A model generated the notes under the pieces. The model did not search any database. It was not told where the DNA came from and saw only the letters and a program-made list of their open reading frames with translations. Shown here piece by piece: positions 1-53,456 of a DNA stretch of 64,000 nucleotides. Each line of letters opens with the position of its first letter. The stretch's first letter is position 1. Source of the stretch: Oscillospiraceae bacterium (lineage in GTDB: Bacteria; Bacillota; Clostridia; Oscillospirales; SIG627); the NCBI GenBank assembly GCA_015065085.1, contig SVQW01000010.1:1-64000 (forward strand), given 5' to 3'. A program made the position numbers and the translations under genes.

Positions 1-120
1 TTCACTCTTAGAATGAATACCTGAATCTTACGTGCCAACCGCACACCGCTTTTCTGCTGAGAATGCCAGTCTTTTCGGGATATTTCGGCGGTTCGGGAAC
101 TCGTCAAAAATGGTGTAAAA

Positions 121-159
121 ACCTGAATCTAGCGCGTCTGCCAATTCCGCCATACCCGC
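121..159 (-). tRNA. 5' half of tRNA-Leu(CAG), split or truncated
   Basis: Reading the minus strand from 159, the sequence has a tRNA-Leu 5' acceptor strand (GCGGGTA), a leucine-type D arm, the 5' anticodon stem CTAGA and the loop TTCAGGT, giving anticodon CAG. A normal gene would continue with TCTAG, a long variable arm, a T arm and a TACCCGC acceptor strand. None of these occurs in the remaining 120 bases down to position 1. The gene is therefore interrupted in or just after the anticodon loop, truncated, or hit by an assembly break near the window edge. The 10-base stretch AGATTCAGGT recurs at 19-28 on the same strand. Confidence 0.7.
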
Positions 160-6968: not shown

Positions 6969-8134
6969 TATTCTTTATAAACTATTTTCGGTATGAACAA
7001 TAACGGAATAAACGTAATAAAATTAAACAATGCGCAAACAGCAAGTCCGCCTTGTGTACCAATCGTCTGTGTAAGCTCTCCTCCGAGAGCGCTTCCCAAT
7101 ATTTTAGGGAGTGCACCGCACAATGCATACATCGCCATCTGACCCGAAGCACGCATATTCGGCGCTACGGTGCGCATCATATAATAGGTAGCACAGTATG
7201 TAACAACAGTAGGCACAAGCCCGGTGAAAAATGCCACAAGCATTATAGCTATTTCGCTTTTTGCATATATAAGCCCGATATACCTGGCGGTCCCCACAGC
7301 CACACATATCCACAAAAGCTTTTTCACACCCACCTTTTCCATGAGCAAATCATAGAATATAAAAAAGAAAATTTCGCCGGCAACAGTGAGAAAAACATTT
7401 ATTCCCATTACCCATTCCGCAATACCCAAGCCCCCTCTTTCCACAGGTGCAATCAGGTATTTTGCATAAAAGTTCTGATAATAGTTAAAAGTCAGGAGTG
7501 CAACCGCCAAAACAATAAATATCATCATCATTGTTCTGTCGGCAAAAAGCGGTTTTAGCGAGATTTTTTCCTTTTTCTCGGCATGTCCCTCCACCTTCGG
7601 TGAAAGTCCGAGAGAAAGCATTGTCACTATTCCGACTACGGGATATACTGCAAACACAAGAGTTATATTATCACCCTCAATGAATGGTGCAAGCACCATA
7701 GCAATGAGCCCGAATCCCAAAGTTCCCATAACACGCAGAACTCCATACTTCCATTTATTCGTATTACTAGCCTCAACGGTTATGGTATCTATCAAACCGC
7801 CGTAATTATTTTGAAAAAGCATTACAAGCGGTAACATTATAAACAGATAAATCAGAGAATTCCCCAAACACACAGCCGTAAAGCTTGCCGTAGCACACGC
7901 AACAAGGAATATCAGTACATTATTTTTGTACTTTGCCTTATCGGTAACAATTCCCCAGAAAAACGGAGCGACTGCAGAAACAAGCTGTGCTGCTGCAAGC
8001 AAGTATCCGATTTCGTCATCTGTTTTTCCGCCGTGTTCGAGATATATCGGAATAAAATTGTAATACAGCGCGTTGAGTGCATATATCAGCGCATTGGCAA
8101 CAAGCAATGCAACGTATGGGGTCCTTTTTGTCAT
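6968..8134 (-). CDS. MFS transporter, sugar-type
   Basis: A 388-residue major facilitator protein with about twelve hydrophobic segments, of the MFS_1-like / LacY-like group. The N-terminal helix pair carries the IYLEHGGKTDDEIGYLLAAAQL loop region, and the cytoplasmic loop DKAKYKNN follows helix 2. Its start ATG overlaps the fucosidase stop by one base (TAATG), with GAGGT upstream, so translation is coupled. The pairing with a GH29 fucosidase suggests uptake of L-fucose or a fucosylated sugar. The family is clear; the substrate is inferred from the neighbour. Confidence 0.82.
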   Translation of the reverse strand: MTKRTPYVALLVANALIYALNALYYNFIPIYLEHGGKTDDEIGYLLAAAQLVSAVAPFFWGIVTDKAKYKNNVLIFLVACATASFTAVCLGNSLIYLFIMLPLVMLFQNNYGGLIDTITVEASNTNKWKYGVLRVMGTLGFGLIAMVLAPFIEGDNITLVFAVYPVVGIVTMLSLGLSPKVEGHAEKKEKISLKPLFADRTMMMIFIVLAVALLTFNYYQNFYAKYLIAPVERGGLGIAEWVMGINVFLTVAGEIFFFIFYDLLMEKVGVKKLLWICVAVGTARYIGLIYAKSEIAIMLVAFFTGLVPTVVTYCATYYMMRTVAPNMRASGQMAMYALCGALPKILGSALGGELTQTIGTQGGLAVCALFNFITFIPLLFIPKIVYKE

Positions 8135-9381
8135 TACTCGACCTCAACTTCAGCTATACGTACAACATAGTTTGTTCCGTAATCATATCCGGTGCAATTT
8201 ACGATAAGTGAGTTTTCAGCGGTATTTTGATTGAATTCCAGCATTTCACCGTTATCAACCCATTTTACGCTTTTAACTTTTTGAGTCAGGCCCGAGAATC
8301 TTCTGGGTCCTATGCCGACATTCGTAACCTCCACAGTTACATCCGACTTACCCTTTATCGCCAGATCGTGAATGTAGAGGTAATACTTTCCGTTGGCTTT
8401 GAGAACAAAGTTCTTACCCTCACCCTTCATTTCGCAAGGTACGCCGTCGTATATGGAGCTGTAACCGACACTGCGTATCCAGTCGCCTATTGACGCAATC
8501 AGTTCTTCCTGGAGAGGTACTATACCGCCCTCTGCGTTGGGTCCGATGTTAAGCAGGTAGTTTGCACCTACCTTACGGCAGGCACAAAACGTTTCAATAA
8601 GCTGAGGAACGGATTTATAATTAAAGTCGCCGTAACCTATACCCCAGTGTGCGTTAAGCGTCTCACACATTTCCGCGGTGACATATTTTGACATTCCCTC
8701 ACGGTTCATGGGCTCGGGACGTCCCTGCTCAAATGTAACACTGTCAATCTCGGGGTCGCCCAGTTTTCCGCGCGCCGACAGTCCTGTGTTATTGATAATT
8801 ATGCAATCGGGCTGATATTTTCTGATGATGGCATAGACTTCGTTCATTTTCCAGTCCTTATCCTTTACGCGCCATACACCGTCAAATTCAAAGCCGCCTA
8901 TTTTTCCGTAATTTGTACATAATATTTCCACAGATTTTTGCAGATACTTTAAGTAGCCCTCAAAGTCCGTTTCAAAAAAGTCGTCCTTCCAGTCAAATGT
9001 TGTATGGTAAAAAAACGGCATTATCCCCTCTGCACGACAGCCTTCAACAAAGTCTGCGATAAGGTCACGTCCTGCTGGTGTGTGCAGGGCGTCATATGTA
9101 TTAAGCCCCTTCGTATCATAAAGAGAAAAGCCGTCATGATGTCTTGTAGTAAGGGTTATATAGTTTGCGCCTGCGCGTTTTGCCGCACGCGCCAGATTTC
9201 TTCCGCTGAATTCGGACGCGGTAAATGTATCGGCAAGTTTGCTGTATTCTTCCTGGGGAATACCTGCCATGTTCTGTATCCACTCGCCTTTTCCAAGCTG
9301 GGAATAAATTCCCCAGTGAACATAAATGCCGAATGCCATCTTTTCAAAATCTCTGATTCTTTTTTCGGGAACGGGTATCAT
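8134..9381 (-). CDS. Alpha-L-fucosidase, GH29
   Basis: A 415-residue glycoside hydrolase of family 29 that releases L-fucose from glycans. Signatures are FGIYVHWGIYS near the N terminus, TTRHHDGFSLYDT, and GGFEFDGVW, whose Asp is at the position of the catalytic nucleophile. The open frame extends to 9435, but the ATG at 9381 has AAGGAG nine bases upstream and starts exactly at the family's usual N terminus, so I use it. There is no signal peptide, so it acts in the cytoplasm on imported fucosides. It is the first gene of an operon with the MFS transporter. Confidence 0.9.
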   Translation of the reverse strand: MIPVPEKRIRDFEKMAFGIYVHWGIYSQLGKGEWIQNMAGIPQEEYSKLADTFTASEFSGRNLARAAKRAGANYITLTTRHHDGFSLYDTKGLNTYDALHTPAGRDLIADFVEGCRAEGIMPFFYHTTFDWKDDFFETDFEGYLKYLQKSVEILCTNYGKIGGFEFDGVWRVKDKDWKMNEVYAIIRKYQPDCIIINNTGLSARGKLGDPEIDSVTFEQGRPEPMNREGMSKYVTAEMCETLNAHWGIGYGDFNYKSVPQLIETFCACRKVGANYLLNIGPNAEGGIVPLQEELIASIGDWIRSVGYSSIYDGVPCEMKGEGKNFVLKANGKYYLYIHDLAIKGKSDVTVEVTNVGIGPRRFSGLTQKVKSVKWVDNGEMLEFNQNTAENSLIVNCTGYDYGTNYVVRIAEVEVE

Positions 9382-39985: not shown

Positions 39986-40090
39986 TGCATCTTCTCTCAT
40001 CCGGACTTTACCGTCGGCTCTGGAATTTCACCAAATCAGCTTACGCTCGCGGGCTTTACCGCCGGTGGGGAATTTCACCCACCCCCGAAT
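39986..40090 (-). promoter_or_regulatory. FMN riboswitch (RFN element)
   Basis: The minus strand carries the conserved core in order: GGGTGAAATTCCCCACCGG, CGGTAAAGCCCGCGAGC, GGTGAAATTCCAGAGCCGAC, GGTAAAGTCCGGATG and AGAGAAGA. These are the RFN element blocks, with the six-helix layout. It controls ribU and, with no gap for another promoter, the glycosidase and birA. Confidence 0.96.
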
Positions 40091-40111
40091 TAAATTGTGA
40101 ATAAAATTAAG

Positions 40112-53029: not shown

Positions 53030-53102
53030 AGCTGATGAGCCGAGTTGAACGGCCGACCTCATCCTTACCAAGGATGTGCTCTACCTACTGAGCTACATCA
53101 GC
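53030..53102 (-). tRNA. tRNA-Thr(GGT)
   Basis: Minus strand: acceptor GCTGATG/CATCAGC, D arm TAGCTCAGTAGGTAGAGCA, anticodon loop TTGGTAA with anticodon GGT, T arm with GTTCAAC. 73 bases; CCA is not encoded. Last of five tRNAs in the cluster. Confidence 0.95.
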
Positions 53103-53107
53103 ATAAG

Positions 53108-53184
53108 TGGCGACCCGAAGGGGACTCGAACCCCTGACCTCTAGCGTGACAGGCTAGCGTTCTAACCAACTGAACTACCGGGCC
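53108..53184 (-). tRNA. tRNA-Asp(GTC)
   Basis: Minus strand: acceptor GGCCCGG/TCGGGTC (two G-U pairs), anticodon loop CTGTCAC with anticodon GTC, T arm GGTTCGAGTCC. 77 bases including an encoded CCA. Confidence 0.96.
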
Positions 53185-53207
53185 ATGTTCCGAATCACTT
53201 TCGGAAA

Positions 53208-53280
53208 TGGGAGCTACAGGGATCGAACCTGTGACCTCCTGCTTGTAAGGCAGATGCTCTCCCAGCTGAGCTAAGCTCCC
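53208..53280 (-). tRNA. tRNA-Val(TAC)
   Basis: Minus strand: acceptor GGGAGCT/AGCTCCC, anticodon loop TTACAAG region with anticodon TAC, T arm GGTTCGATCC. 73 bases; CCA not encoded. Confidence 0.96.
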
Positions 53281-53283
53281 GAA

Positions 53284-53359
53284 TGGAGCGGATTACGGGG
53301 CTCGAACCCGCCACCTCCACCTTGGCAAGGTGGCGCTCTACCAAATGAGCTAAATCCGC
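53284..53359 (-). tRNA. tRNA-Gly(GCC)
   Basis: Minus strand: acceptor GCGGATT/AATCCGC, anticodon loop TTGCCAA with anticodon GCC, T arm GGTTCGAGCC. 76 bases including an encoded CCA. Confidence 0.96.
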
Positions 53360-53383
53360 ATGGCGATATACATTGGGGGAAAA

Positions 53384-53456
<73 letters not shown>

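Follow-up and report, generated by a model that had tools for sequence, protein, structure and literature searches.

A broken tRNA-Leu(CAG) gene at the left edge of the window

The 64,000-nt stretch of DNA analysed here (the window, G000:C10:1-64000) begins with half of a tRNA gene, which raises the question of what has split this gene and where its remainder lies. By direct reading, positions 121-159 of the minus strand (GCGGGTATGGCGGAATTGGCAGACGCGCTAGATTCAGGT) represent a normal tRNA-Leu(CAG) 5′ half ending where the anticodon loop ends, while ARAGORN and Rfam detect no tRNA at the 121-159 junction of the window. The sequence AGATTCAGGT is found at 121-130 and at 19-28, both on the minus strand and 102 bases apart from start to start, so that the split gene with its repeated loop sequence, as described in the initial annotation, is borne out. 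The ten bases listed there as the repeat do recur at 19-28, but the relevant repeat extends beyond them and comprises 110 bp (19-128, minus strand), consisting of a core, a spacer and a second core, the latter being the AGATTCAGGT copy at 19-28. With near-identical copies of this 110-bp unit in about ten other genomes, the repeat is far beyond what chance would give.

We regard positions 1-159 as very probably the attL of an integrative element of about 8 kb, which splits the host tRNA-Leu(CAG) and carries a replacement for it. The 110-bp unit is then the terminal direct repeat of the element, and the outer core TTCAGGT in the anticodon loop (121-127, minus strand) is the putative crossover site with the host tRNA, as judged from the point at which host-specific sequence gives way to element-conserved sequence in the left junctions within tRNA genes. 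Positions 1-18 are the first 18 bp of the unique left end of the element, up to base 1 of the window, which is the end of contig C10; in three contigs from elsewhere (L055, L057 and L059), which cross the left junction, the sequence continues into the element. Over positions 1-129 the window is 99.2% identical to the complete element described below.

The second junction on contig C1

Upstream of base 1, where the initial annotation had proposed to search for the missing 3′ half, the contig ends; the half was instead located on contig C1 of the same genome, at about G000:C1:580072-580123 (minus strand). It adjoins a 99%-identical copy of window 19-128 (G000:C1:580117-580226), which is situated approximately 1 kb before the end of C1 and is joined to the tRNA-Leu 3′ half TCTAGTGAGC...TACCCGC, in which CCA is not encoded. 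When joined by script, the C10 and C1 halves fold into a complete tRNA-Leu(CAG) whose acceptor and anticodon stems are fully paired; the unjoined C10 junction yields no tRNA. Rejoined halves gave tRNA-Leu(CAG) in three pairs, the G031 pair being taken from two different records. Complementarity of the tRNA halves together with the element ends points to adjacency of C1 and C10 in the genome; comparison of synteny with G001, the single test of this adjacency, returned no matches. The remnant idea of the initial annotation holds only in the sense that both halves are relics now. A further intact tRNA-Leu(CAG) is located on contig C22 of the same genome, and the split gene therefore need not be essential.

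The element DNA visible in this genome is restricted to 18 bp on C10 and about 950 bp on C1. The end of C1 is 98.9% identical to the complete element over 530 bp, but its ATPase-like protein is only 51% identical to the counterpart there, and the element bodies accordingly vary. Searches of phage and plasmid collections with the C1 end gave no DNA match, and a protein search of viral contigs with its partial ORF gave no match either. Neither a close match to the integrase nor the element tRNA is found in the G000 assembly. Since the middle of the element is unassembled in this genome, the carried tRNA is presumed for the host of the window.

Recurrence of the junctions and the end of the contig

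The 110-bp unit with the same junctions is present in about ten other Clostridia genomes, several of them from the ruminant gut. A scan of species genomes returned 11 stretches, each of which derives from a Clostridia or Oscillospiraceae MAG; sheep rectum and goat colon are the named sources. The repeat is uncommon, as it was found in 3 of 394 genomes of an order-wide sample. In nine left junctions, including that of the window and that of G031, the repeat is joined to tRNA-Leu 5′ halves which differ between hosts, and from TTCAGGT onward the sequences turn identical. In G031, a member of another family of the same order, the tRNA-Leu that carries this left junction differs in its anticodon stem; the G031 contig stops at the same base of the element as the window. 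Five right junctions connect the repeat with tRNA-Leu 3′ halves, which likewise vary from host to host. Recurrence in different hosts is consistent with excision and integration activity of the element.

For all three contigs of the window, L014 and L061, the distance between the contig end and the start of TTCAGGT is exactly 127 nt. This distance is the mark of a fork in a k=127 assembly graph and fits a single element sequence that joins several contexts, be it several hosts or a circle. An assembly break, one of the options of the initial annotation, hence explains why the contig stops, but not the junction itself. If the tRNA half and the repeat had been joined by assembly error, the 127-nt coincidence would count in favour of such a chimera; the same junction is found in independent assemblies, however, and the contigs L055, L057 and L059 run across it and on into the element. 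A chimeric origin of the junction thus merits hardly any credence and was rejected, the k=127 fork being accepted for the contig end only.

A complete element from goat colon

Both repeats occur in one contig, L072 (JAFQQN010000006.1, goat colon), at 1001-1110 and approximately 9122-9231, about 8.1 kb apart and 100% identical to each other, with the TTCAGGT core at both junctions. Starting from the right end, the element harbors CGTAAGA arm motifs, two paralogous ATPase-like proteins of 520 and 307 amino acids (42% identical), a probable lipoprotein, a repressor of the HTH type, a secreted protein that matches dockerin and, weakly, cohesin, a DUF6809 protein and a 113-aa protein; towards the left end follow a tyrosine integrase (7855-8808; PF00589, E=2e-28), separated from the left repeat by about 0.3 kb, and, at 8947-9033, a complete tRNA-Leu(CAG). 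No family assignment was obtained for the two ATPase-like proteins, and the structure prediction for the larger one has a mean pLDDT of 34.8. An integrase gene, for which the initial annotation had proposed to look beyond the edge of the window, is present in L072 near the left repeat but has no close match in the window's own assembly. With TTCAGGT at both junctions and an integrase in this closed example, the option of an integrated element with the loop sequence as attachment core is supported.

An intron in the anticodon loop, self-splicing or other, would agree with the usual position of tRNA introns and had been listed as an option as well. The covariance models of the Rfam intron families, group I and II included, match neither the window nor L072. 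Moreover, the two halves in L072 lie about 8 kb apart, and the intervening DNA codes for an integrase and a repressor as well as a complete tRNA; at the left junction, what comes after the 102-bp stretch is element DNA and not the tRNA 3′ half. An intron is consequently extremely improbable, and the integrative element remains the preferred interpretation. As to its type, no conjugation genes (relaxase, type IV secretion) were found among the eight L072 proteins with Pfam and NCBIfam. PHROGs likewise showed no virion structural genes for the L072 proteins, which does not fit a prophage.

A second genome (L073) contains the left 3.1 kb of the element with an integrase 99.7% identical to that of L072. 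In L074 (JAUNAM010000071.1, 3652-3937) the repeat, the left end of the element and the complete tRNA match L072 at 99.7%; the DNA past the tRNA has no match to L072 and no close integrase, the left module being joined to another body. An apparently broken integrase adjoins the right end of the element at L072 299-800, and a further tRNA-Leu 3′ half is present on another contig (G394:C23:6660-6700, L119). These two observations suggest stacked insertions at this tRNA.

The carried tRNA gene

The complete tRNA-Leu(CAG) is found inside the element in L072, L073 and L074 and scores 53.9 bits in Rfam for the L072 copy. Between L072 and L073 it differs by paired changes (G3-C70 to A3-U70, and also in the D stem) that preserve the stems, which suggests that the carried tRNA is kept functional. 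In G395 and G396 the copy of the element is the sole intact tRNA-Leu(CAG) found by one sequence pattern, a census of draft genomes that can miss genes and in which one match (G394:C23) is a 3′ half only. Partial loss of the element might therefore cost such a host this tRNA, which would be a form of addiction.

Restoration of a functional tRNA from the repeat at attR was considered and rejected: at attR in L072 and in L051/L056, ARAGORN predicts a tRNA that is poorly paired, its acceptor stem being mispaired, and it predicts none in C1, L043 and L064; in one comparison such a prediction was made at two of four attR sites. Rfam places the tRNA at the L072 attR below threshold.

Proposed mode of integration

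In the proposed mechanism the tyrosine integrase would recombine the core of the element with the host tRNA-Leu(CAG) at the anticodon-loop sequence TTCAGGT. The gene of the host is split, its 5′ half standing on C10 and its 3′ half on C1, at the other end of the element. Neither junction restores a normal tRNA; the complete tRNA-Leu(CAG) would be supplied from just inside the left end, beside the integrase. The half-sites of recombination at TTCAGGT appear to resemble CGTAAGA. Five CGTAAGA/TCTTACG sites are present in L072, exclusively at the cores and in the right arm, where chance alone would give about one in 9.4 kb; a further two CGTAAGA-type sites adjoin a 55%-identical integrase in L084. 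In a putative circular form the two 110-bp copies would come together at a single core, thereby providing the attP arms; recombination of the outermost cores would give a circle in which two units share one core, GTAAGATTCAGGTTTTTAC, an imperfect dyad.

In SIG626 (SVQV01000103.1, L063/L075, approximately 1498-1599) a single 102-bp unit was observed outside any tRNA, inserted close to the 3′ end of thiI at GATTC^TATG; the thiI frame would run on without the insert. This solo unit, together with the dyad core GTAAGATTCAGGTTTTTAC that the 102-bp unit bears at its own ends, speaks for the unit being a minimal mobile cassette that the integrase of the element moves in trans, the element itself merely lying between two copies in the same tRNA. 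Against this, tRNA genes yielded no solo unit, the remaining copies are situated at junctions of the element or at ends of contigs, and the thiI insert comes from a single contig of a draft MAG. The unit there could equally have been left by a whole element excising from thiI between its repeats, as recombination between equivalent cores of both repeats would leave one unit behind. We consider such a cassette unlikely, and slightly less likely again that the 102-bp core-spacer unit is autonomous, moved in trans and able to land outside tRNA genes, with the larger element trapped between its copies.

Comparison with known tRNA-targeted elements

The integrative element of about 8 kb follows a principle that is already known. 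ICEs of Pasteurellaceae (ICEHin1056/ICEPmu1/ICEMh1 type) have the anticodon loop of a tRNA-Leu as their insertion site, are flanked on either side by disrupted tRNA and provide, at one end, an intact tRNA-Leu in replacement (PMC6028734, PMC6861422); a disrupted tRNA copy upstream of a full-length one has also been reported (PMC6861422). The Clostridia element shares the anticodon-loop insertion in tRNA-Leu, the broken tRNA at both ends and the intact tRNA-Leu at one end, the intact copy being found in L072, L073 and L074. Whereas the Pasteurellaceae ICEs use a UUG tRNA-Leu, have 10-13 bp repeats and are large and conjugative, with 77.8 kb for ICEMh1PM22 (PMC6028734, PMC6861422), the Clostridia element targets tRNA-Leu(CAG), has 110-bp repeats and spans about 8 kb without recognised conjugation genes.

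In standard tRNA-targeted islands the gene is restored by an att-borne fragment (Islander, PMC4383910). With these the element has in common a tyrosine integrase, located near the att site in L072, a crossover in the anticodon loop and a position between tRNA fragments, the tRNA core being shared by both ends in L072 and in the C10/C1 pair. It differs in carrying a whole tRNA gene inside, and no tRNA is found at the attL of the window or the attR on C1. Island finders that look for att-borne restoration of the tRNA could misplace the ends of such elements.

A literature search found no paper describing this element. Different from the known systems are the host group, the tRNA-Leu(CAG) target, the small size and the 110-bp terminal repeats; unusual are the presence of these att repeats at both ends and the solo unit in thiI. 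The design of breaking the anticodon loop and supplying a whole replacement gene is thus extended from the Pasteurellaceae ICEs to gut Clostridia.

Related arrangements and other features

Two tandem tRNA-Leu(TAG) 5′ halves, with about 120 bp after each, are located upstream of an intact tRNA-Leu at G000:C2:112690-113141 (L003, approximately 1222-1631). They may be scars left behind by other insertions; a search of contig C2 gave no integrase match. Similar 5′ halves precede intact tRNAs in L015, L019, L021 and L027. In L107 (approximately 1196-1324; G392:C3) a tRNA-Leu 5′ half is directly followed by a complete tRNA-Leu(TAG) and then by a distantly related integrase, which is apparently the same replacement design. 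Elsewhere in the window, an FMN riboswitch (39988-40096) and a cluster of five tRNAs for Thr, Asp, Val, Gly and Phe (53030-53456) are ordinary in appearance.
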